From contig JAEEXH010000019.1 of assembly GCA_016291435.1 (NCBI GenBank), positions 1 to 39,265 of the forward strand: a stretch of DNA of 39,265 nucleotides, read 5' to 3'. The translations under genes and the position numbers were made by a program. The DNA is from Oscillospiraceae bacterium. Its GTDB lineage: Bacteria; Bacillota; Clostridia; Oscillospirales; Ruminococcaceae. The notes beneath the pieces are model-generated. The model had not been told where the DNA came from. It saw nothing but the letters and a program-made list of their open reading frames with translations, and made no database searches. Below are positions 19,500 to 39,265 of the stretch, piece by piece (position 1 is the first letter of the stretch; every line of letters begins with the position of its first letter).

Positions 19500-19690
19500 G
19501 ACGTAAAATTATCCCGAGAGTATAAAATGGGATGACAGAATTTTTCTCTTGTTTGATGTTAGGGGAAACGCACGCAGAATCAACAGGATTGCTGCGCGGT
19601 GTTTCATGCCGTGAATCAGGTGAGGAGCAAATCCATCTGCCCTGAAACTGTCAGAAACAGCCGCACACGGAATCTGTGCGGCTGTTTTTA
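19500..19690 (+). ncRNA. Structured leader RNA or small RNA ending in a terminator
   Basis: Between the strong promoter and the CE15 gene lies about 190 bases of non-coding RNA with ordered pairing. TATCCC pairs with GGGAT near 19510-19534, TGACAG (19533-19538) can close on CTGTCA (19648-19653), and an imperfect hairpin spans 19565-19605. It ends in a 13-bp terminator (19655-19667 with 19675-19687) and a T-run. I compared it by eye with common riboswitches, T-boxes, SRP and 6S RNA and found no match. It is either a stand-alone small RNA or an attenuator of the cellulosomal operon. Confidence 0.6.
19655..19689 (+). terminator. Intrinsic terminator inside the CE15 leader
   Basis: A 13-bp perfect stem with a 7-base loop and TTTTT. 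GTGCGGCT of its right arm is repeated at 19696-19703, where it forms another hairpin (19694-19701 with 19718-19725), so competing structures are possible. Confidence 0.85.
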
Positions 19691-19838
19691 TATCCGTGCG
19701 GCTCTGTACCGGCACTGCCGCACGGGCAGTCATTCTACAAAACGGAAAGGGGGTTCAGGTCAGCATTTATCCCGCAGTCGCATACAAAAACAGATAAAAA
19801 CAGAAATAAGAAAACAGGAAACCGGGGAGGAATCTTAT

Positions 19839-21872
19839 ATGCTACTGTCAAACGCACGCAGGAGGTGTGCGCTGCTTGCTGCGGCAGCCTTTTTGCTGCC
19901 CGCCGCTGCCGGCGCATTTCCCGCAGCCGCGGAGGATACCGGCTATATCTTCTGCGACAGCTTTGAGGACGGTGCTTCCGGCTGGAGCGGGCGCGGCGCG
20001 GCAAAGACCGCCGTCTCGCACAGCACGGCTTATGAAGGCAGCGGGTCACTCTCTGTGACCGGGCGTTCCGCATCGTGGAACGGCGCCGCAAAGCCGCTCA
20101 GCACCGCCGAATTCAAGCCGGGCACGGCATACAGCTTCAGCGCAAATGTGCTGCATCAAGGGAGCAGCGGCACAACCCTCTGCCTGACGCTGGAATATGC
20201 CGACGCGGCAGGCAAGACGAACTACGCAGGCATCGCAAATGCTCCCGCGCCCGAGGACGGCTGGATCCAGCTCGCGAATACCGCCTATGAGATCCCGGCG
20301 GGCGCAACGGATCTGCTGCTCTATGTCGAGACAAAGGAAGACACGGCAGATTTCTATGTGGACGAGGTGATCGCGGCGCCGGAGGGCACTGTGATCGAGG
20401 GCGCAAAGCCGAAGCGCTTTGTACGCGGCGATCTGAACGGCGACGAGAAGATCAATGCGGCAGACCTTTCGCTGCTGAAGGCGGGGCTCATGAACGGCTT
20501 CTCTGACAGCAGCGTGAAAAAGAAAGCGGACATCAATCAGGACAGACAGTATACCGTGCGGGATGCGGAGCTGATGATGCAGTTTCTCACCGCAGAGATC
20601 GAAGAATTCCCGGCCGAGAAGGCGGAGATCGGACCGCTCACCGGCTTTGACCGCGACAGCATCGAGAAAAGCTATGCCTTCACGCCTGTCAGCGGGCTTC
20701 CAAAGAGCAGCGACATCCCCGACCCCTTTGTCTTTACGGACGGCTCTGAGGTCGCATCTGCCGCAGACTGGGTCGCACGGGCAAGCGAGATGAGCTGCCA
20801 GTACGAATACTACATGTACGGCAAATGGCGCGACGGCTCGGACGATGAGGTCACCTACTCGATCAGCGGCAACAAGATGACGGTCAAGATCAGGCGCATC
20901 AGCACAGGAAAGACCACATCCTTCCCGGCAAATATCAGCCTGCCGTCGAAGGTGCGGCATGAGGGCGGCGCGCCGGTCATCATCGGCATGCACTCGAACA
21001 TTTCCGAATCGACCGCGACCGCAAACGGCTATGCCGTCATCACGATCGGCGGGCTGATGGACAACTATGTCGCAGAGGACAGCAACGCGCACAAGGGTCC
21101 CTTCTATGACCTCTATCCCTACGGGAATACATGGGAGGAGCAGACCGGCGTGCTGATGGCGTGGAGCTGGGGATGCAGCAAGGTGCTCGATGCGCTCTAT
21201 AACGGCGCGGCAGAGGAGCTCAGCATCAATCCCGAAAGCGCAATCGTCACCGGCGTTTCCCGCTGGGGCAAGGCGGCAGCAGTCTGCGGCGCCTTCGACA
21301 CGCGCTTCAAGATGACAGCGCCCTCCTGCTCGGGTGCCGGCGGTCTCGCGCTCTACCGCTACAAATCCGAGGGCAAGACCTATGACTTCTCCTCGAAGGG
21401 CGGCAGCGCGTCATATACCTATGATGCGAACGAGCCGCTCAGCAACTTGCAGTCTTCCGGCGAACAGGGCTGGTTCAACACGCGCTTTCTCGAGTTCCGC
21501 GATCCGCAGCAGCTCCCGGTCGATCAGCATATGCTCGGCGCTCTCTGCGCAGACCCGAACCGCTATCTGTTCATCATCGCATCCTGTCAGGGCGAGAACT
21601 GGGTCAATGCGCCGTCGATGTGGATGAGCTATCTCGGGATGCGGCATGTCTGGGATTATCTCGGGCTCTCCGATCATCTCGCAATCAATGTCCACCTGAG
21701 CGGGCATGCGGTCATCGAGGAGGATATGAAATACATGTGTCAGTATTTCGACCGGCATGTATACGGCATTGAGCCGAAGGACGATCTCTCGAAGCTGCAA
21801 ACCTCAGTCTTCGCGCTTCCGAAGAACAGCGATCCCATCTGGAATACATTTACAAATAAATGGCTTTACTGA
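19839..21872 (+). CDS. Cellulosomal CE15 glucuronoyl esterase with internal dockerin
   Basis: A secreted protein of 677 residues. Signal peptide about 1-30; a CBM22/CBM4-like beta-sandwich at about 32-185; a dockerin at about 196-255; CE15 at about 265-677. The nucleophile elbow is G-V-S-R-W-G-K (Ser near 475), and His near 621 sits in L-S-G-H-A-V. CE15 enzymes cut ester bonds between lignin alcohols and glucuronoxylan. The canonical acid position after the elbow reads P-S-C-S-G-A-G-G, with Cys in place of Glu; a Glu in C-Q-G-E-N-W near 585 may replace it. GGGGAGG precedes ATG 19839, and longer frames run through the terminator. Confidence 0.9.
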   Translation: MLLSNARRRCALLAAAAFLLPAAAGAFPAAAEDTGYIFCDSFEDGASGWSGRGAAKTAVSHSTAYEGSGSLSVTGRSASWNGAAKPLSTAEFKPGTAYSFSANVLHQGSSGTTLCLTLEYADAAGKTNYAGIANAPAPEDGWIQLANTAYEIPAGATDLLLYVETKEDTADFYVDEVIAAPEGTVIEGAKPKRFVRGDLNGDEKINAADLSLLKAGLMNGFSDSSVKKKADINQDRQYTVRDAELMMQFLTAEIEEFPAEKAEIGPLTGFDRDSIEKSYAFTPVSGLPKSSDIPDPFVFTDGSEVASAADWVARASEMSCQYEYYMYGKWRDGSDDEVTYSISGNKMTVKIRRISTGKTTSFPANISLPSKVRHEGGAPVIIGMHSNISESTATANGYAVITIGGLMDNYVAEDSNAHKGPFYDLYPYGNTWEEQTGVLMAWSWGCSKVLDALYNGAAEELSINPESAIVTGVSRWGKAAAVCGAFDTRFKMTAPSCSGAGGLALYRYKSEGKTYDFSSKGGSASYTYDANEPLSNLQSSGEQGWFNTRFLEFRDPQQLPVDQHMLGALCADPNRYLFIIASCQGENWVNAPSMWMSYLGMRHVWDYLGLSDHLAINVHLSGHAVIEEDMKYMCQYFDRHVYGIEPKDDLSKLQTSVFALPKNSDPIWNTFTNKWLY

Positions 21873-21884
21873 GCCGAAAGAATC

Positions 21885-21935
21885 AAATCCGCACCGGCTG
21901 TGCCGCAGGATACAGCGCGGCACAGTCCGGCGCAA
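21885..21935 (+). other. Intercistronic hairpin between CE15 and CotH genes
   Basis: GGCTGTGCCGC pairs with GCGGCACAG and the following CC, around a 10-base loop. No T-run follows, so it looks like an mRNA-processing or stability element within an operon, not a terminator. Confidence 0.5.
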
Positions 21936-21950
21936 ACGGGGGGTAAACTC

Positions 21951-24512
21951 ATGCAAATCAGACAGATCAAATCAACTTGCTGCAAGGCGGCTGCCCTGCT
22001 TCTCTCAGCGGCTGCCGTGCAGGCTTTTCCGGGCGCCCTGCCCGCCGGGGCAGCGCTCACGGGCGATCTCAACGCAGACGGCAGCGTCAATGCTGCGGAT
22101 GCCCGGCTTTTGCAGTCGTGGCTGCTGCGGCAGACCGACACGCTCTCTGACTGGAAATCCGGCGATCTCAACGGCGACGGCAGGCTGAATGCCGCCGATC
22201 TCACGCTGCTGAAGCGCCTGCTGATGACTCAGCCGGAGGAGCCGCGCTATATTCATCTGAAGGACAGCGGCATCACCTATGAGGGCGACCACATCACCGT
22301 CAGCGGGAAGACTGCCGTCATCGACGCTTCCGGCACTTATTACATCGACGGCAGCATCACGGGCGGGCAGATTCTTGTGCAGGTTCCCGACGAGACCGTT
22401 GACACCAAAACCGTCAAGCTCTTCCTCAGCGGCGTCAGCATGACGAACCCGGACGCGCCCTGCATCATGGTCGAGAACGCGGAGAACACCTCCGTCAATC
22501 TCGTCGAAGGCAAGGAAAACACCCTCTCCGACGGCAAAGAGGCACCCGCCGCGGAGATCGAGCCGACATTTGCCGTGCTGCACGCAAAGGATGATCTCAC
22601 CGTCAAGGGCGAGGGCAGTCTCTCGATCAGCGCGGGTGACGCTTACGGCATCCACTGCAACAACGATCTCAAGCTGAACGGTGGCAGCGTCACCGTCACG
22701 ACCGAAAACGGCGATGCCGTCCGCGGCAGAACATCGGTCACCGTCAAGGACGGCAGCATCTTCATCGACACCGAGGGCGACGGCATCAAATCGACAAAGG
22801 GCACGCTCGCGGTCACAGGCGGCACCGTGCAGATCAAATCCGGCAAGGACGCTTTGCAGTCCGAGACAACGATGGATCTCACCGGCGGCACCGTGCAGGC
22901 ATGCGGCGACCGCAGCCTGAAAGCCGGCGGTGCGGTCACGCTCGACGGCTGCACGATTCTTGCAACCGCGACCGACGAGGCGTGCAAAAGCCTCGGCACA
23001 ACCGCACAGCCCTCCATGCAGGTGACCTTTGTCAAGGAATGGGCAAAGAACAATCCGATCGCGCTGACGGACGTTTCCGGCAAAACAGTCTATGACCTCA
23101 ACGCGCTGAAAAAATACCGCTATGCGATCATTTCCGCGCCCGGTCTCAGCGCAGGCACAGACTATGCGCTCTATGCGGGCGGCATCCGGGTCGAATACAG
23201 CGGCGGGCAGACCTTCCGTCTTTCGGGCAGCGCAGATTACACCGGCGTCAACAACACCGATCACGCGGATCTGCTCTACGGCGATTTCTTCAGCCAGCGT
23301 GAGGTACACAAGGTCGAAGTGACGATGCCCGATGCACAGTGGCAGGATTTCCTCGCACATTCGCAGGATGAGGAATACTATCCCTGCGATGTGACCATCG
23401 ACGGCGAGGTATACAAAAATGTCGGCATCCGCACAAAGGGGCACAGCTCCAATATGTTCATCTATCAGGCGGGCAAAGACAAATACAGCTTCCGCATCAA
23501 GATGGACAAATATGACAAGTATCAGAATTATCACGGGCTCACGGAATTCTGCATGAACAACATGTATTCGGACCCCTCCTGCATGCGTGATATTCTCTGC
23601 TACAACGCGATGGAGGAGCTGGAAGCCTATGCGCCTGTCTGCTCCTACACAGACATGTATCTGAACGGGAAGCTCTACAGCTTCTATTTCCTTGCAGAGC
23701 AGCCCGGCACCACGCTCGGCGAACGGCTCGCAACCGATGACGATGCCGTGCTCTACAAGGCGGCAGATGTCGGACAGAACTATGACTGCACCTTCGCACC
23801 GGACATGGCGCTCAACAATTTCGAGGTCAAATTCGGCACGGACTATGACCTTAAGCATATCTCCGATCTCGTGACGGCGATCAATCAGGTGACGCCGCAG
23901 AATTACAAATTCATCGAGGACTATATTGATGTGCCGAGCTTCCTCAAGGGCTTTGCCGTCAATGCGGCGCTCTGCAACTACGACAGCTACAACGGGCAGA
24001 TGCCGCACAACTACTATGTGGAGTATAACAAAGGAAAGCTGTATTATGTCGGCTGGGACTATAACCTCTCGCTCGGCAATTTCATGGATTACGGCGCATC
24101 GGTCAATTCCGATATCAACACCGGCATGTACCAGGCGGACGAAAACCGCCGTCCGCTGCTGACAAAGCTGCTTGCCGTGCCGGAATACAAGACGCTGTAT
24201 AACGGCTATGTGAATCAGATCATGCGCTTTTACAGTGACCCCGAAAAGACCGTGAACGGCTTTGCCTCCCTCATCCGCAGCCATGTGCAGGCTGACCCGC
24301 GCGGTCTCTTTACCGCAGACCAGTTCGAGAGCAACATCGCAAAGAGCCCGAACGGTTTACAGGTCGGCGGAGGCGACGGCGGCATGTGGGGCGGTATCTG
24401 GGGCGGCATGTGGGGCGGACAGGGCGGCCTGTTCTCCTACGGCGGCGACCAGGTCTCCATCGTCGATTTCATGATCAAGCGCAGCGAGGTCATCCGCTCG
24501 ACACTCCGATAA
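21951..24512 (+). CDS. Dockerin protein with beta-helix and CotH kinase-like domain
   Basis: A secreted protein of 853 residues. Signal peptide about 1-33; dockerin at about 36-93 right after it (GDLNADGSV and GDLNGDGRLNAADL). A repetitive beta-helix-like region (about 98-400) follows, with recurring V-x-G-x-x repeats like the Cthe_2159 carbohydrate-binding family. A CotH domain covers about 450-850, with the V-G-W-D-Y-N-L-S-L-G motif near 699. CotH-fold proteins include atypical protein kinases; in cellulosomal bacteria they are common dockerin proteins of unclear role. A Gly/Trp/Met-rich stretch lies near the C-terminus. The gene follows CE15 by 78 bases and ends at a strong terminator. Confidence 0.88.
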   Translation: MQIRQIKSTCCKAAALLLSAAAVQAFPGALPAGAALTGDLNADGSVNAADARLLQSWLLRQTDTLSDWKSGDLNGDGRLNAADLTLLKRLLMTQPEEPRYIHLKDSGITYEGDHITVSGKTAVIDASGTYYIDGSITGGQILVQVPDETVDTKTVKLFLSGVSMTNPDAPCIMVENAENTSVNLVEGKENTLSDGKEAPAAEIEPTFAVLHAKDDLTVKGEGSLSISAGDAYGIHCNNDLKLNGGSVTVTTENGDAVRGRTSVTVKDGSIFIDTEGDGIKSTKGTLAVTGGTVQIKSGKDALQSETTMDLTGGTVQACGDRSLKAGGAVTLDGCTILATATDEACKSLGTTAQPSMQVTFVKEWAKNNPIALTDVSGKTVYDLNALKKYRYAIISAPGLSAGTDYALYAGGIRVEYSGGQTFRLSGSADYTGVNNTDHADLLYGDFFSQREVHKVEVTMPDAQWQDFLAHSQDEEYYPCDVTIDGEVYKNVGIRTKGHSSNMFIYQAGKDKYSFRIKMDKYDKYQNYHGLTEFCMNNMYSDPSCMRDILCYNAMEELEAYAPVCSYTDMYLNGKLYSFYFLAEQPGTTLGERLATDDDAVLYKAADVGQNYDCTFAPDMALNNFEVKFGTDYDLKHISDLVTAINQVTPQNYKFIEDYIDVPSFLKGFAVNAALCNYDSYNGQMPHNYYVEYNKGKLYYVGWDYNLSLGNFMDYGASVNSDINTGMYQADENRRPLLTKLLAVPEYKTLYNGYVNQIMRFYSDPEKTVNGFASLIRSHVQADPRGLFTADQFESNIAKSPNGLQVGGGDGGMWGGIWGGMWGGQGGLFSYGGDQVSIVDFMIKRSEVIRSTLR

Positions 24513-24683: not shown

Positions 24684-24791
24684 GGAGCATAGAGAAATTC
24701 GCAGTGACACCATGATTTCAGGGGAATCTATGCAGCCGGTGTTGTACCGCATCTGCTGCGTGAAACGATATGACAAATGGGAGGGAATTTT

Positions 24792-27659
24792 ATGCGTAAA
24801 CAAAATCTGAAACTCATTGCGGGCGTTCTGGCTGCCGCAATGGCTGTGCCGGCTGCTGTCAATCTGGCAGAGCCGCTCCGTGCCGGGGCATATGAGCTGC
24901 TCGGCGAAGGCAATTTTGACTTCAAGATCGCGCCCTGGCAGGCTGTGGGAACACTCCCGGCAAAGCAGCAGTTCGACATTGACGACGGAGCCGCACACAT
25001 CCGGATCATCACTTCACATGGCGCCGAATCGGCATACTGGGACTTGCAGTTCCGGCACAGAAATCTCGATTTCAAGCAGAAACATGTCTACAAGGTCAGC
25101 TTCAAGGCGAAGGCTTCGCGAAACGGTCTGGAGCTCCTTTCGCATATCAGCAATGTCCGGGACGATGCATGGTATTTCGTGCTGGACGGCTCCAGCATGG
25201 ATATGCACATGGGTCCCGATATGGGCGGACAGTGGCCCACTGAGGTCAAGCTCACAACGGAGTATCAGACCTTCACCGGCACCTTCACACCGACAGAGGA
25301 TATTGAGGCTGCCGTCTGGCGCTTCGCGTATGCAAATGACACACTCGGGCACGGCGGAAATGCGCAGGACGGCGATGAGATCTGGTTCGATGAAATGACA
25401 ATCGAGGACACCACCTCTGACGGTCCCTGCGGCACCGGATGGGATTTCGGCTACCGCACACGCGGAGAAAGCGACCTCCAAAACAACTATATCTCCGTCA
25501 ACCAGATCGGCTATTTCCCGCAGCTTGCAAAGATCGCGGTGCTGGGCGACAACGGCGGCGATCTCCTGCCCGATGCACCGTCGATCACGCTGGAGGGCAG
25601 ATACCAGTATGAGATCGTGCGGGTCTCCGACGGAAAGGCCGTGTATTCAAACTGGACCTCAAATCCGACGGAGGACAAGGATTCCGGCGACACAGTCTGC
25701 GAGATCGACTTCTCGAAATTCGATCAGCCGGGCGAATATTATATCCGCATCGTGGGCAAGGAATGGCAGTCGTATCCCTTCCGCATCGCCGATGATCTTT
25801 ACAGCGAATCGGGGCATGATCTGCTGACAAATGCGATCAACTATTTCTATCAGAGCCGCGCAAATGACGACATCAGCGCGGAATACATCACCTCCGGCAA
25901 TCGTTCTGAGCTTGCACATGCGGGCGACCTCACGGCTGTGACCGGCTATGTGCTGGACGGCTGGAAAAACACGGACACCATGACACCTTACGATGTCAAG
26001 ACCTTCAGCTCCGCCACGCTCCTCGGAAACGGCGGCTGGTATGAATCCGATTCCTACGACAAATCCGTGACAGAGGGCGGTCTCGCCGTCTGGACGCTCC
26101 AGAATATGTATGAGCGTGCGATCGGAACAGAGGACGGCAAGGCAAAATTTGCAGACGGCTCCGGCACGGTCGTCATCCCGGAGAACAAGAATCAGGTGCC
26201 CGATATTCTCGATGAATGCAGCCGGGAGCTGGACTTCATGTCCAAGCTGCGTGTGTCGTCTGACTCGAAGACATACGGCGATTACGCAGGGCTCTATTAT
26301 CACGGAATCTGCGGCGTCGGGATCGACCCCTACCGCTTTGCCTACGATCAGGATGAAGAAGCCGTGTATGCCGTGCTGCCGCCGACCTATGCCGCAACGC
26401 TCAGCTATGCAGCGGTCGCTGCACAGGCAGCAAGACTCTGGGCACCCTATGACGCGGACTATGCCGCAAAGCTCCTCGAAGGCGCAAGGGAAGCCTATCA
26501 TGCGTATCAGCGCAATTATGTGTATCTGGGCGCCGGCGATCAGATGAGCGCAATCCCGTTCTTCGCACCCGAATGGCTCCCGGACTATGACCCGGAGACT
26601 TGGGACGATGCCTACTGGGCAGCATGCGAGCTCTATCTCACCGCAAAGGCAATGAATGAGCAGGATGCAGATACCTACCTCACCGATCTCACCGGCTACT
26701 TAAAGGCGTTCGAGGTTCCGTTACGCTGCACCTATCTGAATGACAGCAATGATTTCCCAGACAATGGCTCCTATACGCCGTTCCGCAGAGAAAATACCGG
26801 CGCGATGGGCTCGCTCTCGCTGCTGCTGCACAAGGATCTGCTCCCCGCAGAGGAAGCCGCTTCGCTCAGAGATTCTCTGATCGCTGCCGCAGACGACTAC
26901 TCCTACACCGTGCGCACGCAGGGCTACGGCACACCGTACAAGTATGACGGCCCCGGCACCGGCTCCGGCGATCCCTCGGACCCGACGCAGATCGTCCTCT
27001 ACGGCTATGAATTTGACTCCAACACATTTGCACTCCGCAATATGATGGTGATGGCATATGCCTACGATGAAACCGCAAACACAGACTACCTGAACGGCGT
27101 TGTGAAGGGGCTTGACTATCTCTTCGGCTGCAACCCGCTCTCGTTCTCCTTTGTCACCGGATACGGCAGCTATCACGCGGAAAACCCGATGCACACATTC
27201 TGGGTGCATGCACTTTCCCCCGCATACCCGAAGGCACCCGACGGCGTGATCGTCAGCGGCCCGAACGGCAGTGCATTTGATCCTGCCATGAGAGCGCTCG
27301 GCCTGTACTACGCAGAGCCGGATGTTCCGTCTCAGCGCATCTATGCAGACAACCCGGAGGCATGGTCGGCGAATGCGGCATCGCTCAGCAGCAATGCGGC
27401 GCTCGCATGGGTCATCTCCTTCATGCAGGATGCAAATAACACGCCTGCCGTGCTGGCAACCGGCGATGTTGACGCAGACGGCGGTCTCTCCATCGCAGAT
27501 GCTGTCATCATGCACAGATGGCTGCTCGCTGATACTGACAGCAAGATGATTGACTGGAAAGCGGGCGACTTTGACGGCAACGGCAGACTGAATGCCGCCG
27601 ATCTGTCAAAGCTGAAGCATGTGCTGATCAACAGCTTCTTGGACGGCAGAGTCGGATAA
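24792..27659 (+). CDS. GH9-like dockerin protein with altered catalytic residues
   Basis: A secreted protein of 955 residues. Signal peptide about 1-32; CBM4-like module about 33-210; an Ig-like CelD_N module from about 231; a GH9 (alpha/alpha)6 domain about 335-880; dockerin about 890-950. The fold is clearly GH9: GGWY then E-G-G-L-A-V-W-T-L-Q-N-M-Y-E-R, F-V-T-G-Y-G and L-A-W-V-I-S-F. However, the DAGD base motif reads ESDS (418-421), HHR reads MHT (800-802) and the catalytic Glu of the W-S-T-N-E motif is Ala862. It may be a non-catalytic binder or a changed enzyme. ATG 24792 is preceded by GGGAGGG. Confidence 0.88.
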   Translation: MRKQNLKLIAGVLAAAMAVPAAVNLAEPLRAGAYELLGEGNFDFKIAPWQAVGTLPAKQQFDIDDGAAHIRIITSHGAESAYWDLQFRHRNLDFKQKHVYKVSFKAKASRNGLELLSHISNVRDDAWYFVLDGSSMDMHMGPDMGGQWPTEVKLTTEYQTFTGTFTPTEDIEAAVWRFAYANDTLGHGGNAQDGDEIWFDEMTIEDTTSDGPCGTGWDFGYRTRGESDLQNNYISVNQIGYFPQLAKIAVLGDNGGDLLPDAPSITLEGRYQYEIVRVSDGKAVYSNWTSNPTEDKDSGDTVCEIDFSKFDQPGEYYIRIVGKEWQSYPFRIADDLYSESGHDLLTNAINYFYQSRANDDISAEYITSGNRSELAHAGDLTAVTGYVLDGWKNTDTMTPYDVKTFSSATLLGNGGWYESDSYDKSVTEGGLAVWTLQNMYERAIGTEDGKAKFADGSGTVVIPENKNQVPDILDECSRELDFMSKLRVSSDSKTYGDYAGLYYHGICGVGIDPYRFAYDQDEEAVYAVLPPTYAATLSYAAVAAQAARLWAPYDADYAAKLLEGAREAYHAYQRNYVYLGAGDQMSAIPFFAPEWLPDYDPETWDDAYWAACELYLTAKAMNEQDADTYLTDLTGYLKAFEVPLRCTYLNDSNDFPDNGSYTPFRRENTGAMGSLSLLLHKDLLPAEEAASLRDSLIAAADDYSYTVRTQGYGTPYKYDGPGTGSGDPSDPTQIVLYGYEFDSNTFALRNMMVMAYAYDETANTDYLNGVVKGLDYLFGCNPLSFSFVTGYGSYHAENPMHTFWVHALSPAYPKAPDGVIVSGPNGSAFDPAMRALGLYYAEPDVPSQRIYADNPEAWSANAASLSSNAALAWVISFMQDANNTPAVLATGDVDADGGLSIADAVIMHRWLLADTDSKMIDWKAGDFDGNGRLNAADLSKLKHVLINSFLDGRVG

Positions 27660-27825: not shown

Positions 27826-27854
27826 TTGACAAAACTTTCACAATGTGCTATAAT
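27826..27854 (+). promoter_or_regulatory. Promoter of the glutamate synthase operon
   Basis: TTGACA (27826-27831), 17-base spacer, TATAAT (27849-27854) with an extended TGC. Transcription should start near 27861. Confidence 0.9.
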
Positions 27855-27864
27855 ATCGACAATG

Positions 27865-27886
27865 AAATGAACAAGGGCGTTCATTT
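27865..27886 (+). promoter_or_regulatory. ANTAR-type hexaloop hairpin in the glutamate synthase leader
   Basis: An 8-bp perfect stem (27865-27872 with 27879-27886) closes the hexaloop AAGGGC, with A at position 1 and G at position 4, the signature of ANTAR RNA targets. Its loop and right arm are also the 5' strand of the terminator that follows, so the two folds exclude each other. No second upstream hairpin fits between it and the transcription start. Confidence 0.75.
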
Positions 27887-27927
27887 GAGGAACACGGACT
27901 CCGTGTCTTCAAATGGACGCCCTTTTT
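27873..27927 (+). terminator. Leader terminator before the glutamate synthase genes
   Basis: A 16-bp stem (27873-27888 with 27909-27924, one wobble) with an inner ACACGG / CCGTGT helix, then TTTTT. It ends 22 bases before the first start codon, so it must be bypassed for expression. Confidence 0.9.
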
Positions 27928-27948: not shown

Positions 27949-29043
27949 ATGATCCCACTGGAAGGTCAGGTGCGCATCCCCTCGGGCTGCGCGGTCTCTG
28001 CGATGATCTCACGCGACGGCAGACGCATGAACGGCGAGCAGATCATTCAGAGCATGGTGCCGATGCACGACCGCTCGAACGGTCTGGGCGGCGGCTTCGC
28101 GGCATACGGCATCTATCCCGAATACAAGGACTTCTATGCGCTGCATATCTTCTTCAATGACAAGTCATGTCAGAACGAGTGCATGACGCTGCTCAAGGAG
28201 TATTTCGAGATTGTGCAGGATGAGCACATCAAGGTGCGGAAGATTCCGCAGATCACCGATGAACCGATCATCCGCCGCGTGTTTGTCTCGCCGATGCAGT
28301 CTGTGCTGCGGCATTTGCAGATCGACGAAAAGGAGCTGGTTGTGCGCACCGTCAACCGCATCAATGCACAGCTCGACGGCAGCTATGTCTTCTCCTGCGG
28401 CAAGAATATGGGTGCGTTCAAGGCGGTCGGTTTCCCGGAGGATGTCGGCAGATATTACCGCCTTGAGGAATATGAAGCCTACTGCTGGACGGCGCACGGC
28501 AGATACCCCACAAATACGCCGGGCTGGTGGGGCGGTGCGCATCCGTTCTGCATGCTCGATTATTCCATCGTGCACAACGGCGAGATCTCGTCCTATGACG
28601 CGAACCGCCGCTTCATTGAGATGTACGGCTACAAATGCACCCTGCAAACGGATACAGAGGTCATCACATACATCGCAGATTATCTGCTGCGGCGGCAGGG
28701 GCTGACGCTAGAGGAAACCGCGGCTGTCATTGCGGCGCCGTTCTGGTCAACGATCGACGCAAAGCCGGAAGCCGAAAAGCAGATGTATACCTACCTGCGC
28801 AATGTGTTCCCGAGCCTGCTGGTCACGGGTCCGTTCTCGATCATCCTCGGCTTTGAGGGCGGTCTGATGGCGCTCAACGACAGACTGAAGCTGCGGTCTA
28901 TGGTGATCGGCGAACAGGATGATATGGTCTACATTGCCAGCGAGGAAGCCGCGATCCGCGTGATGGCGCCGGATATCAGGAACATCTGGTCGCCCGCGGG
29001 CGGTGAGCCGGTGATCGTAAGAGTGAAGGAGGGAGCGTTTTGA
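27949..29043 (+). CDS. Glutamate synthase glutaminase subunit (class II GATase, archaeal-type GltB1)
   Basis: A 364-residue class II glutamine amidotransferase. The nucleophile is Cys14 in S-G-C-A-V-S, so 13 residues would be removed on maturation. It also shows the class II features A-H-G-R-Y-P-T-N-T near residue 181 and V-H-N-G-E-I-S-S near 207. It supplies ammonia from glutamine to the FMN subunit encoded next. The start at 27949 has AAGGAGG at a good distance; an upstream in-frame ATG lies inside the terminator hairpin and is rejected. The stop overlaps the next start by 4 bases. Expression probably depends on antitermination in the leader. Confidence 0.9.
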   Translation: MIPLEGQVRIPSGCAVSAMISRDGRRMNGEQIIQSMVPMHDRSNGLGGGFAAYGIYPEYKDFYALHIFFNDKSCQNECMTLLKEYFEIVQDEHIKVRKIPQITDEPIIRRVFVSPMQSVLRHLQIDEKELVVRTVNRINAQLDGSYVFSCGKNMGAFKAVGFPEDVGRYYRLEEYEAYCWTAHGRYPTNTPGWWGGAHPFCMLDYSIVHNGEISSYDANRRFIEMYGYKCTLQTDTEVITYIADYLLRRQGLTLEETAAVIAAPFWSTIDAKPEAEKQMYTYLRNVFPSLLVTGPFSIILGFEGGLMALNDRLKLRSMVIGEQDDMVYIASEEAAIRVMAPDIRNIWSPAGGEPVIVRVKEGAF

Positions 29044-30536
29044 ACTTCTACCCGGAATTTGAAGTGGTGCGCAATGACAGCCGCTGCATCCGCTGCCGCG
29101 TATGTGAACGGCAGTGTGCAAATGAAGTGCATTGGTATGACGCAGACGGCAAGGTGATGCTCTCCGATGAATCGAAGTGCGTGAACTGCCAGCGCTGCGT
29201 GACACTGTGTCCGACGCGGGCGCTGAAAATCGTCAAGAGCGACTGCCGCCTGCGCGAGAACGCAAACTACTCCGATCAGACGATCAAGGAGATCTACCGG
29301 CAGGCGGAGACCGGCGGTGTGCTGCTCTCCTCGATGGGCAACCCGAACCCGCTGCCCGTTTACTGGGACAAGATCCTGATCAATGCCTCGCAGGTGACGA
29401 ACCCGCCGATCGACCCGCTCAGAGAGCCGATGGAAACGCGGGTGTTCCTCGGCAAAAAGCCCGAGCACATCACCCGCAATGCAGACGGCACGCTCAACAC
29501 GCAGCTCGCGCCGCAATTAACGCTCAGCATGCCGGTCATGTTCTCGGCGATGAGCTACGGCTCAATCAGCTACAACGCACACGCGAGCCTTGCACGCGCC
29601 GCCTCCGCGCTCGGCATCTGCTATAACACCGGCGAGGGCGGTCTGCACGAGGATTTCTACAAATACGGCAAGAATACAATCGTACAGGTCGCCTCGGGCA
29701 GATTCGGCGTACACAAGGATTATCTTGAGGCGGGCGCTGCCATCGAGATCAAGATGGGACAGGGCGCAAAGCCCGGCATCGGCGGACATCTGCCCGGCAC
29801 AAAAGCAGTCGGCGATGTTGCCAAGACGCGCATGATCCCCGAGGGCAGTGACGCAATCTCCCCTGCGCCGCATCACGATATTTATTCGATCGAGGATCTG
29901 CGGCAGCTTGTCTATTCGCTGAAGGAAGCGACGGAATACCGCCTGCCTGTCATCGTCAAGGTCGCGGCGGTGCATAATATTGCGGCAATCGCAAGCGGCA
30001 TCGCACGCAGCGGCGCGGATATCATCGCCATCGACGGCTTCCGCGGCGGCACCGGCGCAGCCCCGACAAGAATTCGCGACAATGACGGCATTCCGATTGA
30101 GCCCGCCCTCGCGGCAGTCGATAAGCGTCTGCGCGATGAGGGCATCCGCAACAATGTGTCGATCGTCTGCGGCGGCTCCGTGCGCTCCGCATCCGATGTG
30201 GTCAAGGCAATCGCGCTTGGTGCCGATGCCTGCTATATCGCGACCGCGGCATGTCTTGCGATGGGCTGCCACCTCTGCCGGAGCTGCCACACGGGCAAGT
30301 GCAACTGGGGCATTGCGACACAGCGCCCCGATCTGGTCAAGCGCCTGAATCCCGATATCGGCTCGCAGCGGCTCATCAACCTGATGGACGCCTGGCGGCA
30401 TGAGATCAAGGAACTGATGGGCGGCATGGGCATCAATTCCATCGAAGCCCTGCGCGGCAACCGCCTGATGCTGCGCGGCGTCGGGCTGACGGAAAAGGAA
30501 CTGGAAATACTCGGAATTGCACATGCGGGGGAATGA
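29040..30536 (+). CDS. gltB: Glutamate synthase FMN subunit with N-terminal ferredoxin domain (GltB2)
   Basis: A 498-residue protein. Two 4Fe-4S clusters lie near the N-terminus (C-I-R-C-R-V-C-E-R-Q-C and C-V-N-C-Q-R-C-V-T-L-C-P). The TIM-barrel FMN/2-oxoglutarate domain follows, with S-Y-G-S-I-S, I-K-M-G-Q-G-A-K-P-G-I-G-G near residue 240 and G-F-R-G-G-T-G-A-A-P near 335. A Cys cluster C-H-L-C-R-S-C-H-T-G-K-C near 420 matches the 3Fe-4S region of glutamate synthases. It turns 2-oxoglutarate plus ammonia into glutamate. The start is TTG 29040, overlapping the previous stop, with AAGGAGGGAG upstream. Confidence 0.93.
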   Translation: MNFYPEFEVVRNDSRCIRCRVCERQCANEVHWYDADGKVMLSDESKCVNCQRCVTLCPTRALKIVKSDCRLRENANYSDQTIKEIYRQAETGGVLLSSMGNPNPLPVYWDKILINASQVTNPPIDPLREPMETRVFLGKKPEHITRNADGTLNTQLAPQLTLSMPVMFSAMSYGSISYNAHASLARAASALGICYNTGEGGLHEDFYKYGKNTIVQVASGRFGVHKDYLEAGAAIEIKMGQGAKPGIGGHLPGTKAVGDVAKTRMIPEGSDAISPAPHHDIYSIEDLRQLVYSLKEATEYRLPVIVKVAAVHNIAAIASGIARSGADIIAIDGFRGGTGAAPTRIRDNDGIPIEPALAAVDKRLRDEGIRNNVSIVCGGSVRSASDVVKAIALGADACYIATAACLAMGCHLCRSCHTGKCNWGIATQRPDLVKRLNPDIGSQRLINLMDAWRHEIKELMGGMGINSIEALRGNRLMLRGVGLTEKELEILGIAHAGE

Positions 30537-30539
30537 GCC

Positions 30540-30983
30540 ATGAAACGAATCTATGTGAAAGAGGAATGGTGCCTCGGGTGCCGTCTCTGCGAATACAACT
30601 GCGCGTTTGCAAATTCCGGCATGACGGATATGGTGAAGGCGCTGCGCGGGAAGGAGATTCATCCGCGCATTCAGGTCGAAACGGATGCAGACGGCATCAC
30701 CTACGCGGTCTCCTGCCGCCACTGCACCGATCCGATCTGCGTGAAAAGCTGCATTGCGGGCGCGATCTCAAAGAAGGACGGCGTCATCGAAATTGATCAC
30801 AGCAAATGTGTCGGCTGCCTGACCTGCGTGCTGGTCTGTCCCTACGGCTGCGTTGTCGAGGACGAGGGCGGCGCGGCACAGAAATGCGAGCTCTGCATGA
30901 AGAATACCTGCGGTGCACCTGCCTGTGTCAAGGGCTGTCCGAACGGTGCGATCGTCTATGAGGAACGGGGGGAAGCGGAATGA
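30540..30983 (+). CDS. 4Fe-4S ferredoxin-type electron carrier of the glutamate synthase
   Basis: A 147-residue protein with four Cys-rich clusters: C-L-G-C-R-L-C-E-Y-N-C, C-R-H-C-T-D-P-I-C-V-K-S-C, C-V-G-C-L-T-C-V-L-V-C-P and C-E-L-C-M-K then C-V-K-G-C-P. This is the arrangement of CooF/HycB-like four-cluster electron carriers. Its place between the FMN subunit and the flavoprotein suggests it relays electrons from NAD(P)H to the synthase. It starts 3 bases after gltB and overlaps the next gene by 4 bases (ATGA). Confidence 0.9.
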   Translation: MKRIYVKEEWCLGCRLCEYNCAFANSGMTDMVKALRGKEIHPRIQVETDADGITYAVSCRHCTDPICVKSCIAGAISKKDGVIEIDHSKCVGCLTCVLVCPYGCVVEDEGGAAQKCELCMKNTCGAPACVKGCPNGAIVYEERGEAE

Positions 30984-32218
30984 AGCAGTATGTGATCATC
31001 GGCAACGGTGCTGCGGCGGCAGGCTGCATAGAAGGCATCCGTGCAGTCGATACAGCGGGCAGCATCACTGTCATTTCGGCGGAGCAGCACCCGGTCTACT
31101 GCCGCCCGCTGATCTCCTATTATCTGCAACATAAAACCGATTTGCAGCGCATGCGTTACCGCAGCGAAACATTCTATGCGGATAATCATGTCTCTGTCGC
31201 GTTTGGAAGAACGGCCATCGAAATTTCCGCAGATACGAAGGAAATCACACTGGACAGCGGCGAAATAATCGCATATGACGCGCTGTGCGTCTGCACGGGT
31301 TCTTCTCCGTTTGTGCCGCCGATGCAGGGACTGGAAACAGTGGAGAAACAGTTTGCATTCATGACCGTTGACGATGCACTGGCGATTGAACAGGCGGTCA
31401 CGCCGGAATCGAACGTGCTCATCATCGGCGCGGGACTGATCGGGCTGAAATGCGCAGAGGGCCTGCACGGTCGCGCCGGCAGCATCACCGTCTGCGACCT
31501 TGCGCCGCGTGTGCTCTCGTCGATTCTTGATGACAAATGCGCCGCGATGATGCAGAAGCATCTCGAAGCAAACGGCATCCGGTTTCTGCTCGGCACAAGC
31601 GCAAAGGAATTCCGCGGCAGCAAGGCGGTCATGCAAAGCGGCGAGACCGTTGACTTTGATGTGCTGGTGCTTGCGGTCGGCGTGCGGGCAAACACGGCAC
31701 TTGTAAAGAACGCGGGCGGCGATGTGAACCGCGGCATTCTGACCGATGATGCCTGCAAAACAAGCCTTCCGGATGTATACGCTGCGGGCGACTGCACGGA
31801 GTATCACGACATTTCCTCCGATTCCGTCAAGGTGATGGCGCTCATGCCGAATGCCTATATGCAGGGGCACACCGCAGGCGTCAATATGGCGGGCGGCGCG
31901 GCGGTCTTTGACAACGCGATCCCGATGAATTCCATCGGATTCTTCGGGCTGCACTGCCACACGGCAGGCACACAGCCGGATGGCTGCGAAATGTACGAAG
32001 AAGCGGACGAAACGCATATCAAGCGCCTCTTTGTGAAGAATGACAGACTGACGGGCTTCATGCTGATCGGTCACATGCACAGAACGGGCATTTACACCGC
32101 GCTGATCCGGAATCAGACACCGCTCTCGTCGGTGGATTTTGCGCGGCTGCGGATCGAGCCGCAGCTTGCGGCAATGGGTGCGGATTACCGCGAACATGTA
32201 CTGAAAGGAGCTGTCTGA
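30980..32218 (+). CDS. FAD/NAD(P)-dependent oxidoreductase of the glutamate synthase
   Basis: A 412-residue pyridine-nucleotide-disulfide-type flavoprotein without a redox-active CxxC. The FAD-binding N-terminus is I-I-G-N-G-A-A-A-A-G, the NAD(P) Rossmann motif is I-I-G-A-G-L-I-G-L-K near residue 150, and the second FAD motif is V-Y-A-A-G-D-C near 268. It resembles rubredoxin or nitrite-reductase-type NADH oxidoreductases. In this operon it probably feeds electrons from NAD(P)H via the ferredoxin to the synthase. The next gene starts directly after its stop (TGA-ATG). Confidence 0.9.
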   Translation: MKQYVIIGNGAAAAGCIEGIRAVDTAGSITVISAEQHPVYCRPLISYYLQHKTDLQRMRYRSETFYADNHVSVAFGRTAIEISADTKEITLDSGEIIAYDALCVCTGSSPFVPPMQGLETVEKQFAFMTVDDALAIEQAVTPESNVLIIGAGLIGLKCAEGLHGRAGSITVCDLAPRVLSSILDDKCAAMMQKHLEANGIRFLLGTSAKEFRGSKAVMQSGETVDFDVLVLAVGVRANTALVKNAGGDVNRGILTDDACKTSLPDVYAAGDCTEYHDISSDSVKVMALMPNAYMQGHTAGVNMAGGAAVFDNAIPMNSIGFFGLHCHTAGTQPDGCEMYEEADETHIKRLFVKNDRLTGFMLIGHMHRTGIYTALIRNQTPLSSVDFARLRIEPQLAAMGADYREHVLKGAV

Positions 32219-35966
<3,748 letters not shown>

Positions 35967-35970
<4 letters not shown>

Positions 35971-35996
35971 CAATCGCCCGCAGCATATGGTATGAT
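35967..35996 (+). promoter_or_regulatory. Promoter of glnA
   Basis: TTGACA (35967-35972, overlapping the purF stop), 18-base spacer, TATGAT (35991-35996). The leader is short and has no terminator hairpin, unlike the neighbouring nitrogen genes. Confidence 0.8.
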
Positions 35997-36023: not shown

Positions 36024-37250
36024 ATGCTGATTGTATCACAGCAAGAAGCCGCAGATCTGATCAAAAACAGCGATATCAAATTTGTGCGCCTTGCCTTCTG
36101 TGATGTCTACGGCGTACAGAAGAATATTTCGGTGCAGGCGGCGGAGCTTGAGCGCGCCTTCACACAGGGCATCGCGTTCGATGCATCGTCCATCGCAGGC
36201 TTCCGCGATCCCTCGCATTCCGATCTCTTTCTGTTTCCCGATCCGATGACAATGACACTGCTGCCGTGGAGACCCTCCAGAGGCGGCGTTGCGCGTTTTT
36301 TCTGCGAAATCCGCAACCCGGACGGCACGCCGTTCTCCGCAGACAGCCGCAGCTTCCTTGCGGCGACAGAGCAGCTGCTCGCAGAGCACGGTCTCCGCTG
36401 CGACATCGGCGCGGAATGTGAATTCTATCTCTTCAAGCTCGATGAAAACGGGAACCCCACGGATATCCCGCTCGACCGCGGCGGCTATTTTGACATTGCG
36501 CCGACGGACGGCGGCGAGAATGTCCGCCGTGAAATCTGTCAGACGCTTGAGGCGATGGGCATTCAGCCGGAGCGCTCGCACCACGAGCAGGGACCCGGTC
36601 AGAATGAAATTGATTTCCGCTATTCCAATGCCCTGAGCGCCGCCGACAATGTTGTGACATTCAAGCAGGTCGTCAGCACGGTTGCCGCACGCAACGGGCT
36701 CTGGGCATCCTTTGCGCCGAAGCCGCTCGCGGGCGAAGCCGGAAACGGGTTTCATATCAACTGTTCCCTTTCAAAATGCGATATCCGTGCGGATGTGAAT
36801 GAATCGCTGTTTCAGTCATTCATGGCGGGCGTGATGGAGCATACGCCCGAGATGACCGCCGTGCTGAATCCGCTTGCGGAATCCTATGCGCGGCTCGGCA
36901 GGGATAAGGCGCCCGGCCGTGTCTCATGGTCGCCCTCAAACCGCTCTCAGCTTATCCGGATCCCGGCAGCGGACGCCTCCCATCAGCGTATGGAGCTGCG
37001 CTCGCCGGATGCCTCCGCGAATCCGTATCTTGCCTTTGCGCTGGTCATGCGTGCCGGTCTCGACGGCATTCTCCGCGGTCTCACGCCGCCGCCCTCCTGC
37101 AACGAAAACCTGCTGGATGCGCCCGCGGAGACCGCAGCGCAGTATCCCGCGCTGCCCGCTGATCTGACTGCCGCACGCCGCCTCATGAAAGAAAGCACGT
37201 TCATGCAGCAGGCATTGCCTGCACATCTTTTTGCAGCCTATACGGAGTGA
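36024..37250 (+). CDS. glnA: Glutamine synthetase, GSI-type, short form
   Basis: A 408-residue GSI-family protein, a few dozen residues shorter than most GSI enzymes. Seen: F-D-A-S-S-I-A-G-F near residue 51, the metal-binding G-A-E-C-E-F-Y-L-F near 131, N-E-I-D-F near 194, the H-containing N-G-F-H-I-N near 245, N-R-S-Q-L-I-R-I-P near 308 and M-E-L-R-S-P-D-A-S-A-N-P-Y-L-A-F near 330. It should make glutamine from glutamate, ammonia and ATP, unless it acts on another amine like some GlnA paralogues. RBS AAAGGATG precedes ATG 36024. The ANTAR gene follows within 10 bases, so the two are cotranscribed. Confidence 0.9.
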   Translation: MLIVSQQEAADLIKNSDIKFVRLAFCDVYGVQKNISVQAAELERAFTQGIAFDASSIAGFRDPSHSDLFLFPDPMTMTLLPWRPSRGGVARFFCEIRNPDGTPFSADSRSFLAATEQLLAEHGLRCDIGAECEFYLFKLDENGNPTDIPLDRGGYFDIAPTDGGENVRREICQTLEAMGIQPERSHHEQGPGQNEIDFRYSNALSAADNVVTFKQVVSTVAARNGLWASFAPKPLAGEAGNGFHINCSLSKCDIRADVNESLFQSFMAGVMEHTPEMTAVLNPLAESYARLGRDKAPGRVSWSPSNRSQLIRIPAADASHQRMELRSPDASANPYLAFALVMRAGLDGILRGLTPPPSCNENLLDAPAETAAQYPALPADLTAARRLMKESTFMQQALPAHLFAAYTE

Positions 37251-37258
37251 CAGGAGCC

Positions 37259-37852
37259 ATGCTGACGCGCTTTGAGCAGAAAGAGGTTTTCGTCATTTCC
37301 TCGAACGAGAATTTTCATCGCTATGTACGGGACAATCTGCCGGAGGGTGACTTCATTGTGTCCGGCGGTGCGGATACCTGTACGGAAGCACGCCAAAAAA
37401 TGATGGGCAACCGCTCTGCGGTCGTCGTCATCAATATCCCGCTCTCGGATGAATGCGGCACCGAGCTTGCGGGCGATCTTGCAGAGAACGGCTCCGCATC
37501 GGTCATCGCCGTCGTGAAGAATGAGCAGGAGCCGGAATTCCGGCAGTCGCTGGAGCCCGCAGGCGTCTTTGTCCTCGGGAAGCCGTTTCCGCACAGCTCC
37601 TTTCACCAGGCGCTCTATGACGCCGCATCCGCTTATGCCAGAATGCAGATCATCTCACAGGAAAACCAGCGGTTACAGATCAAGCTGATCGACCTGCGGC
37701 TTGTCAACCGCGCAAAATATGCGCTGATTCAGTATCTCGGAATGACCGAGGAAGAAGCGCACAAATACATCGAGCACATGGCAATGGATCAGCGGATCTC
37801 CAAGCGGAAGGCTGCGGAAAATATTCTAAAAACCTATGAGAATCAGGGCTAG
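37259..37852 (+). CDS. ANTAR-domain antiterminator with a degenerate receiver
   Basis: A 197-residue protein. The N-terminal 120 residues have receiver topology, but the acidic pocket reads I-S-S-N-E and the phospho-acceptor position is Asn59 (V-V-I-N-I-P-L); Lys108 of G-K-P-F remains. A coiled-coil (about 125-145) leads to a C-terminal ANTAR three-helix RNA-binding domain (about 145-195, with A-K-Y-A-L-I-Q, M-T-E-E-E-A-H and the S-K-R-K-A-A-E-N-I end). ANTAR proteins bind hexaloop hairpins and prevent terminator formation. Two such leaders are close by. It probably senses something other than phosphorylation. The start at 37259 is tentative because GGAG is only 2 bases away; a GTG at 37247 is the alternative. 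Confidence 0.9.
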   Translation: MLTRFEQKEVFVISSNENFHRYVRDNLPEGDFIVSGGADTCTEARQKMMGNRSAVVVINIPLSDECGTELAGDLAENGSASVIAVVKNEQEPEFRQSLEPAGVFVLGKPFPHSSFHQALYDAASAYARMQIISQENQRLQIKLIDLRLVNRAKYALIQYLGMTEEEAHKYIEHMAMDQRISKRKAAENILKTYENQG

Positions 37853-37896: not shown

Positions 37897-37925
37897 TTGA
37901 CATTCGCCCGAAAATATGCTATCAT
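37897..37925 (+). promoter_or_regulatory. Promoter of the type III glutamine synthetase gene
   Basis: TTGACA (37897-37902), 17-base spacer, TATCAT (37920-37925) with an extended TGC. Start expected near 37932. Confidence 0.85.
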
Positions 37926-37936
37926 GTAACACAGAA

Positions 37937-37954
37937 AACAGCAACGGTGCTGTT
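37937..37954 (+). promoter_or_regulatory. ANTAR-type hexaloop hairpin in the glutamine synthetase leader
   Basis: A 6-bp stem AACAGC / GCTGTT closes the hexaloop AACGGT, with A at position 1 and G at position 4. It uses the 5' strand of the terminator, as in the glutamate synthase leader. It starts about 5 bases from the predicted transcription start, so there is no room for a second hairpin. Confidence 0.8.
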
Positions 37955-37989
37955 CGGGAATTTCCCGAAGTGCCGCTGCTGTTTTTTTT
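37937..37989 (+). terminator. Leader terminator before the type III glutamine synthetase
   Basis: A long imperfect stem (37937-37960 with 37962-37983) followed by eight T residues, 28 bases upstream of the start codon. Confidence 0.9.
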
Positions 37990-38017
37990 GTTTATTACAC
38001 AGAAAGGATGTATTTTT

Positions 38018-39265
38018 ATGAAACCGACAGATGTATTCGGAAGCCTTGTCTTCAACGACGCCGTCATGCAGGAGCGTCTCCCGAAGGCGGTCTACAAGTC
38101 TCTGCACGAGACCATTGCAAACGGAAAGGACATTGATCCGACCGTTGCCGATGTGGTCGCGAGTGCGATGCGTGAATGGGCAGCGGAGAACGGCTCCACA
38201 CACTACACCCACTGGTTCCAGCCGATGACCGGCATCACCGCAGAGAAGCACGACAGCTTCCTCTCCCCGGACGGAAACGGCGGCGCGATCCTCGAATTCT
38301 CCGGCAAGGAGCTCATCAAGGGCGAGCCGGATGCATCTTCGTTCCCGTCGGGCGGTCTGCGCGCAACCTTCGAGGCACGCGGCTACACCGCATGGGACCC
38401 GACCTCCTACGCATTCATCAAGGAGAACAGCCTGTGCATCCCGACCGCGTTTTATTCTTACAGCGGCGAGGCGCTCGACAAGAAGACCCCGCTTCTCCGC
38501 TCGATGGAAGCCGTCAGCGAGCAGGCAGTGAAGGTGCTGCATCTGCTGGGCTTTGACGATGTGCAGCGCGTCAGCGGAACCGTCGGTCCCGAGCAGGAAT
38601 ATTTCCTCATCGACCTCGAAATGGCAAAGCAGCGCAAGGACATTCTCTTCACCGGCAGAACGCTCTTCGGCGCAAAGGCACCGAAGGGGCAGGAGATGGA
38701 AGATCACTATTTCGGCGTGATCCGCCCGCGTGTGCAGGCATTCATGAAGGAGCTGAACGAGGAGCTCTGGAAGCTCGGCATCTACGCAAAGACCGAGCAC
38801 AATGAGGTCGCTCCCGCACAGCATGAGCTTGCACCGGTCTACACCACGATGAACATTGCCTGCGACCACAATCAGCTCACTATGGAGATCATGAAGAAGG
38901 TCGCTGAGCGCCACGGTCTCATGTGCCTGCTGCACGAAAAGCCCTTTGCCGGCGTCAACGGTTCCGGCAAGCACAACAACTGGTCGCTCTCGACCGACAC
39001 CGGCATCAATCTCTTTGCGCCGGGCAAGACGCCGGAGCGCAAGCGGCTCTTCCTGCTGATGGTCGCAGCGGTCGTTGCAGCCGTGGACGAGCATCAGGAT
39101 CTGCTCAGAATGTCGGTTGCCTCTGCGGGCAATGACCACCGTCTGGGCGCAAATGAAGCGCCGCCCGCCATCGTGTCCGTGTATCTCGGCGATGCCCTCC
39201 AGCTCCAGCTCGAAGCCGCCGCAGAGGGCAGAGATGAGCAGAAGCACCGCGAGACGCTGACCACC
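38018..39265 (+). CDS. glnN: Glutamine synthetase type III (partial, runs off the right edge)
   Basis: The first 416 residues of a GSIII protein (family length about 700). Family sequences seen are F-N-D-A-V-M-Q near the N-terminus, T-H-W-F-Q-P-M-T-G near residue 65, [16 protein letters not shown] near 109, G-P-E-Q-E-Y-F near 190, [11 protein letters not shown] near 265 and [10 protein letters not shown] near 312. It makes glutamine from glutamate and ammonia, and GSIII is a main ammonia-assimilating enzyme in ruminal Ruminococcus. RBS AAAGGATG precedes ATG 38018. Its leader carries the ANTAR-type hairpin and terminator. Confidence 0.95.

Follow-up and report, generated by a model that had tools for sequence, protein, structure and literature searches.

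ANTAR proteins have been described as binding RNA hexaloops with an A at position 1 and a G at position 4 (A1 and G4), thereby preventing terminators (PMC3369931, PMC8934654). The published model for EutV contains two hexaloops, both of which are required in vivo (PMC3369931, PMC8934654). According to the paper on the EutV crystal structure, the minimal ANTAR site is one hexaloop, yet both are obligatory for antitermination in vivo, and single hexaloops are stated to need further work (PMC8934654). A link to nitrogen metabolism, the same theme as at the locus analyzed here, was reported by Ramesh et al. (2012), who predicted ANTAR target RNAs before glutamate/glutamine synthase, ammonium transporter and PII genes, for example in Desulfotomaculum; their search is described as using a dual-hairpin model, and the leaders presented below may be among its hits (PMC3369931). 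In Clostridia, an antiterminator or ANTAR gene is tied to ammonia assimilation, as here, in the cases of NitR from Clostridium acetobutylicum and Clo1313_2030 from C. thermocellum, and the expression of the latter is reported to mirror its gene cluster with glutamate synthase; unlike for our leaders, the part of that account used here mentions no hexaloop (PMC4676874).

The leaders in the window, by which we mean the whole stretch of 39,265 nucleotides from a rumen bacterium that was analyzed, resemble the EutV/eut leaders of Enterococcus faecalis in their A1/G4 hexaloop, in the overlap with an intrinsic terminator and in the ANTAR protein counterparts of EutV residues K149, E160, M172 and R175 (PMC3369931, PMC8934654). 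Unlike the eut leaders, they contain one hexaloop, in a hairpin predicted to sit right at the 5' end of the transcript; unlike EutV, the ANTAR protein has a receiver domain that lacks the phospho-Asp, and the targeted genes belong to GS-GOGAT, ammonium uptake and biosynthesis that uses glutamine. We conclude, with a probability of roughly 80%, that the leader is an ANTAR-controlled transcription attenuator with a single hexaloop. The sequences, their conservation and covariation, the neighbouring genes and the conserved contact residues are observed, and from them we infer the protein dependence, the start sites, the direction of control and the signal.

Two leaders of the same design in a nitrogen gene cluster

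The gene order in the window is glutamate synthase, pyrG, a purF-like gene, glnA, antar, leader and glnN, with the following features:

27826 to 27854, plus strand: predicted promoter of the glutamate synthase operon, TTGACA-17-TATAAT, 12/12 match (promoter scan)
27865 to 27886, plus strand: putative antiterminator hairpin of the glutamate synthase operon, hexaloop AAGGGC (sequence)
27875 to 27927, plus strand: predicted intrinsic terminator that shares the loop and 3' arm with the AAGGGC hairpin (folding)
27949 to 32941, plus strand: split glutamate synthase genes with GATase, FMN domain, ferredoxin, FAD and GXGXG (Pfam)
32952 to 35970, plus strand: pyrG and the purF-like gene, encoding glutamine-using enzymes, downstream of the gltB leader (Pfam)
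35967 to 35996, plus strand: predicted promoter of glnA-antar, 11/12 match (promoter scan)
36024 to 37250, plus strand: glnA-type (type I) glutamine synthetase, overlapping the ANTAR ORF by 4 nt (Pfam)
37247 to 37852, plus strand: ANTAR protein with a pseudo-receiver domain, read from the GTG at 37247, proposed binder of both leaders (Pfam, alignment)
37897 to 37925, plus strand: predicted sigma-70 promoter of glnN, TTGACA-17-TATCAT, 11/12 match (promoter scan)
37937 to 37954, plus strand: putative antiterminator hairpin with one hexaloop, AACGGT (sequence, relatives, stem covariation)
37937 to 37989, plus strand: predicted intrinsic terminator using the same bases as the hexaloop hairpin (sequence, folding)
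38018 to 39265, plus strand: glnN, type III glutamine synthetase, running off the window (Pfam GSIII_N)

No hexaloop leader was seen after the glnA-antar promoter at 35967 to 35996. Elsewhere in the window, visual inspection of the translations revealed large ORFs with dockerin-like repeats (9083 to 11602, 19599 to 21872, 21900 to 24512 and 24777 to 27659), suggesting a possible cellulosome-type fibre degrader.

The hairpin of the glnN leader consists of the stem AACAGC (37937 to 37942), the loop AACGGT (37943 to 37948), in which A1 is at 37943 and G4 at 37946, and the stem GCTGTT (37949 to 37954). The terminator stem extends from 37937 to 37983 with a run of 8 T at 37982 to 37989, and the ATG of glnN is at 38018. 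Both arms of the hairpin are located inside the 5' arm of the terminator, which confirms at 37937 to 37989 the placement of the hexaloop in the 5' strand of an 8-T terminator by the preliminary description. That description had also pointed to a second leader with the same hexaloop-terminator design at 27861; this was borne out by the gltB leader, with the hairpin AAATGAAC-AAGGGC-GTTCATTT at 27865 to 27886 and a terminator stem at 27875 to 27922. Each of the two leaders follows its strong promoter match by about a dozen bases. The predicted fold of the glnN leader has an energy of -29.6 kcal/mol in the terminator form versus -14.6 kcal/mol with the hexaloop hairpin enforced. The same relation was predicted for all 27 leaders from the genus: each folds most stably into a terminator-like form and loses stability when the hexaloop hairpin is enforced.

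A scan of the window for hexaloops with A1 and G4 on a Watson-Crick stem of at least 6 bp, followed by 5 T within 70 nt, identified exactly two motifs on the plus strand, namely the glnN and gltB leaders, as compared to 0.05 expected from 60 dinucleotide shuffles of this strand. The same scan of the minus strand yielded no motif.

Conservation among genus relatives

ANTAR matches were obtained in 20 of the 30 genus genomes, and the order glnA-antar-glnN is present in 19 of these 20. The exception is G024, where glnN is absent from the vicinity of the sole ANTAR gene (L018), which is diverged. Amt or gltB leaders without any ANTAR match were noted in three genomes (G001, G013 and G018, with completeness 88, 76 and 77). 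A second, more distant glnA-antar pair with a diverged glnA was noted in G007 (L016 and L017, where L016 is apparently from the same genome).

The genus leaders were picked by gene position, which gave 18 distinct glnN and 9 distinct gltB leaders. A1 and G4 are invariant in all 27, and the core is missing in none. In the window, the two leaders are located at about -81 and -84 relative to the start codon, and an equal distance to the start had been put forward as a shared property of the two. This is a coincidence of this genome: in relatives anchored by gene position, the start of the glnN hairpin lies anywhere from 76 to 179 nt before the gene, and more than 190 nt before it in L020, while that of the gltB hairpin stays at 80 to 84 nt. 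The CAGC core follows the -10 box at a distance of 13 nt in 18/18 distinct glnN leaders and of 12 to 19 nt in 9/9 distinct gltB leaders. Thus, the constant quantity is the distance of the hairpin to the promoter, not to the start codon.

A single hexaloop close to the promoter

We compiled 119 unique leaders (18 glnN, 9 gltB, 68 from the family and 24 from the class). The loop contains A1 in 116, G5 in 112 and C6 in 105 of these; A2 and G4 were required when the leaders were picked, and their presence is thus no test. Position 1 is a G in two leaders, both with G4 kept (L153, GATGGC; L161, GAAGGT), and a C in one, the misregistered L202. A promoter with at least 10 of 12 matches within 45 nt before the stem was identified in 106 of the 115 leaders with enough flanking sequence, as compared to about 1.2% in shuffled upstream sequences. 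The median distance from the -10 box to the base of the stem is 9 nt, and of the 113 leaders in which a promoter was recognised, 103 have a gap of 3 to 16 nt here. Given these short gaps, transcription should begin no more than a few bases away from the stem.

The arrangement shares the A1/G4 hexaloop and the terminator overlap with the dual-hexaloop motif, and differs from it in that the two hairpins P1 and P2 are not both present. Another A1/G4 hexaloop ahead of the T run, on a stem of at least 4 bp (3-bp stems were not counted), was found in 6/115 leaders versus 3.6 expected from shuffles, and the two leaders of the window are not among the six. A full hexaloop hairpin that follows the -10 box but precedes the first hairpin was seen in 2/115 leaders. 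These counts, together with the short distance from the -10 box to the stem, argue against the alternative that the leaders are standard dual-hexaloop ANTAR targets, in which the second hairpin has gone unrecognised or P1 is located in longer read-through transcripts from antar. In favour of this alternative, read-through from antar into the glnN leader is possible, and L002 has a second A1/G4 hexaloop (CGGG ATTGCT CCCG) in an inner hairpin. The control for the dual-motif scanner was also weak: in five eut loci of the class, three of them with ANTAR proteins by profile, the strict dual-hexaloop scan gave no candidate and a relaxed scan gave three, of which one (L214 near 7046, with AACGGC and then AAAGCG before a terminator) resembles the published arrangement. 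On balance, we consider a hidden second hexaloop unlikely.

We set the leader apart as a variant because its RNA has one hexaloop, whereas two are among the features that define the published target motif. The leaders collected here are thus natural single-hexaloop candidates for testing whether one hexaloop suffices in vivo.

Covariation of the hairpin stem

Covariance model R1 is restricted to leaders of the gltB/glnA type and similar ones; aligning such leaders together with those of glnN put the 3' arms out of register, and the mixed alignment was not used for a model. Covariation was analyzed for 87 distinct hairpins (alignment A3), from which L202 was left out; L196 was the only locus dropped for having no core.

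In total, 93.5% of the cells in the alignment are paired. The stem displayed 33 two-sided changes as compared to 8.0 in shuffles, none of 500 shuffles reached 33, and these counts ignore kinship. The covariation score was 0.310 versus 0.176 in shuffles and 0.017 to 0.112 in slid structures, a comparison that favours the true structure over the controls because R1-derived hairpins were chosen with a stem of at least 4 bp, so that the completeness of the four inner pairs results from the selection. The two outer pairs, which were not selected, displayed 5 and 9 two-sided changes, but also 20 and 14 unpaired cells. The C-G pair that closes the hexaloop stem never varies.

The location of the glnN hairpin wholly within one arm of the terminator means that the terminator alone could create this hairpin. 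If so, the leader might be a constitutive attenuator or a plain terminator, and the hexaloop hairpin a by-product of the long inverted repeat. However, the gltB leaders, of which there are nine, mostly have the 5' arm of the hairpin outside the predicted terminator, and this arm is still paired, and the loop positions A1 and G5 and the closing C-G pair are kept while the stem pairs change. We consider a by-product less likely still than an overlooked second hexaloop, and the attenuator with a single, ANTAR-bound hexaloop remains the preferred reading.

The ANTAR protein and its proposed mode of action

The ANTAR domain (PF03861) of the protein encoded at 37247 to 37852 scored 48 bits versus the Pfam cut-off of 27.3. 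No other ANTAR match was obtained in the genome (completeness 92.7%), and the gene is located directly upstream of the glnN leader. Because ANTAR proteins bind A1/G4 hexaloops and prevent terminators, the regulator of the glnN leader, which the preliminary description did not name, is very probably the ANTAR protein encoded next door. The nearest solved chains by sequence are 1s8n (Rv1626), AmiR, 6wsh (EutV) and, weakly, 4akk, a nitrate regulator which we take to be NasR.

We compared the residues that contact the hexaloop in EutV, as defined in the structure paper (PMC8934654), in an alignment of 64 ANTAR rows, which were chosen as phmmer relatives of the window's protein and of which 63 are distinct, since this protein is included twice. 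The counterparts of K149, E160 and M172 are invariant (64/64), all 64 rows have R or K in place of K143 and K147, and the counterpart of R175 is kept in 57/64. The counterpart of Y164 is a His in 63/64 rows, as it is in AmiR. The contacts R142 and R177 are not kept in these 64 rows.

The phospho-Asp position of the receiver domain is an Asn in the window's protein and in 51/64 rows, and an Asp in 2/64. The protein thus lacks the phosphorylatable Asp of a two-component response regulator such as EutV, and the signal is therefore probably not phosphorylation. AmiR of Pseudomonas aeruginosa is described as a similar pseudo-receiver ANTAR protein, with a His at the Tyr164 position, that is controlled by a partner protein (PMC8934654). 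By analogy with AmiR, a nitrogen signal would probably reach the ANTAR protein of the window by protein-protein contact. The partner of AmiR is AmiC, whereas the gene beside antar in the window encodes glutamine synthetase, and our guess is that the co-encoded GlnA is the first candidate for the nitrogen sensor. The gene glnA is located upstream of antar in 20/30 family loci, and the 4-nt overlap of the two ORFs is absent from most genus relatives. The window's GlnA aligns over most of the known GS chains and ends about 27 residues before the best-matching solved chain; 21/25 of its family neighbours run on by at least 15 residues. The leaders also suggest a nitrogen-control circuit in rumen and gut Clostridia, with the regulator encoded beside glutamine synthetase and its receiver lacking the usual phosphorylation site.

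We propose the following mechanism. Transcription would start a few bases before the hairpin, so that the hexaloop hairpin would be the first structure to leave the RNA polymerase. An active ANTAR protein would grip the hexaloop, with G4 flipped against His172, the counterpart of EutV Tyr164, and hold the hairpin. The held hairpin would block the longer terminator, allowing glnN, the glutamate synthase operon and amtB-PII to be transcribed. With the ANTAR protein inactive, the more stable terminator would form and transcription would stop. The sole hexaloop would correspond to the one that overlaps the terminator, similar to P2, leaving no room for an upstream P1.

Target genes and distribution

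Leaders at other genes were sought by a pattern search over the 30 genus genomes, followed by inspection of 14 chosen regions. In the genome of the window itself, a gene encoding a fused ammonium transporter-PII protein (contig C64, L248) is preceded by a leader of the same design, and further amtB-PII leaders were located at L249, L250, L251, L252, L253 and L256. The Pfam domains Ammonium_transp and P-II were confirmed for 4/7 of these loci (L248, L250, L252 and L253), and the other three were assigned by their first residues. Many of the pattern-search matches were Shine-Dalgarno look-alikes (CAAAGGAG); among the 14 inspected regions, L254, L255 and L258 were false and L257 lacked the pattern, and the rest were amt or gltB leaders.

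In the window's genome, R1 recovered the gltB leader, its antisense and two weak matches (C23 and C57; E 0.013 and 0.029), and it misses the glnN and amtB leaders, so that counts obtained with R1 are lower bounds for the design. Matches were obtained in 96/198 family genomes at E<=0.1 and in 73/198 at E<=0.001, with 61/115 genera of the family represented at E<=0.1. At the class level, 70/343 genomes had matches at E<=0.001, under 30 family labels; outside the class loci read (see below), short matches may be plain terminators.

Downstream of the leader in the 70 family loci read, which include the window's own genome, we found gltB in 50, other nitrogen or nucleotide genes in 19 and a glycosidase in one. 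The gltB assignments are based on tblastn for 45 loci and, for five with a large GltB, on Pfam (L143, L169 and L170) or the first residues (L155 and L168). The other genes are glnA (8), pyrG (4), purA (4; L112, L136 and L148 by Pfam, L160 by first residues), purC (L117) and carA (L141 and L152), and the glycosidase gene is of type GH38 (L131, in G098). The 29 class loci read, three of which repeat family loci, gave 21 gltB, one glnA, two purC (L194 and L195), one asnB (L191) and one nadE (L208); L188 and L204 had no clear nitrogen gene, L204 also had no obvious promoter, and L196 was not registered.

An ANTAR match is present in 69/73 family genomes with a leader at E<=0.001. Put differently, such a leader was found in 69/150 family genomes with an ANTAR match versus 4/48 without one (Fisher p 7.7e-7, kinship ignored). 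The four leader-bearing genomes without an ANTAR match are G056 (L136, before purA), G098 (L131), G060 and G096; at E<=10, three of them still had none and G060 had weak ones only (best 0.6). Conversely, R1 gave no match at E<=0.001 in 81/150 ANTAR-containing family genomes, and six of ten family ANTAR loci that hold the gltB start have no leader there (L079, with a degenerate look-alike, L080, L083, L087, L089 and L103). A strict scan applied to 39 ANTAR loci from the family gave 11 with a leader that we judged credible (L075, L078, L081, L082, L084, L092, L095, L098, L102, L104 and L105), and several other candidates look spurious.

Rfam searches returned no family at the gathering score in the window and a tRNA as the sole family reaching the threshold in 20 leader loci, with weaker matches such as miRNA precursors, sRNAs and bglG-cis-reg (24 of 80 bits) below it. 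A metabolite-sensing riboswitch or another RNA-only regulator, which would also explain a leader RNA with two competing folds, is highly improbable in view of these searches, of the co-occurrence of the leaders with ANTAR genes and of the some 50 to 90 nt from the hairpin to the T run, which would leave little room for an aptamer.

Leaders upstream of amt, gln and glt genes, a covarying stem and the retention of A1 and G4 in 27/27 distinct genus leaders had been anticipated, and all were observed. The proposal of one regulon for glutamine and glutamate synthesis stands as far as glnN and gltB share the leader design, but proved too narrow, with ammonium uptake added in the window's own genome and purine, pyrimidine and asparagine synthesis in relatives. 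The regulon reading of the shared leaders is thus supported. More tentatively, and with slightly less than even confidence, we suggest that antitermination through one hexaloop occurs naturally and widely in Clostridia as a form of ANTAR control. In this view, the hexaloop at the 5' end takes the place of the P1 landing site, nitrogen status is read without phosphorylation by an ANTAR protein that has a pseudo-receiver and is coupled to a glutamine synthetase gene, and ammonium uptake, GS-GOGAT and glutamine-using nucleotide synthesis form one regulon.

Two minor observations were made. At about 7847 in L104, a GACAGC-AATGGG-GCTGTC hairpin with a terminator follows right after pyrG, with no obvious promoter, and could be either a terminator or an internal attenuator. 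The gltB promoter of the window (27826 to 27854) and the amtB promoters of L248, L249, L250, L251 and L256 have almost the whole spacer in common (TTGACAAAnCTTTCACAATGTGCTATAAT), which exceeds the needs of a sigma-70 promoter and points to a possible shared DNA-binding regulator.
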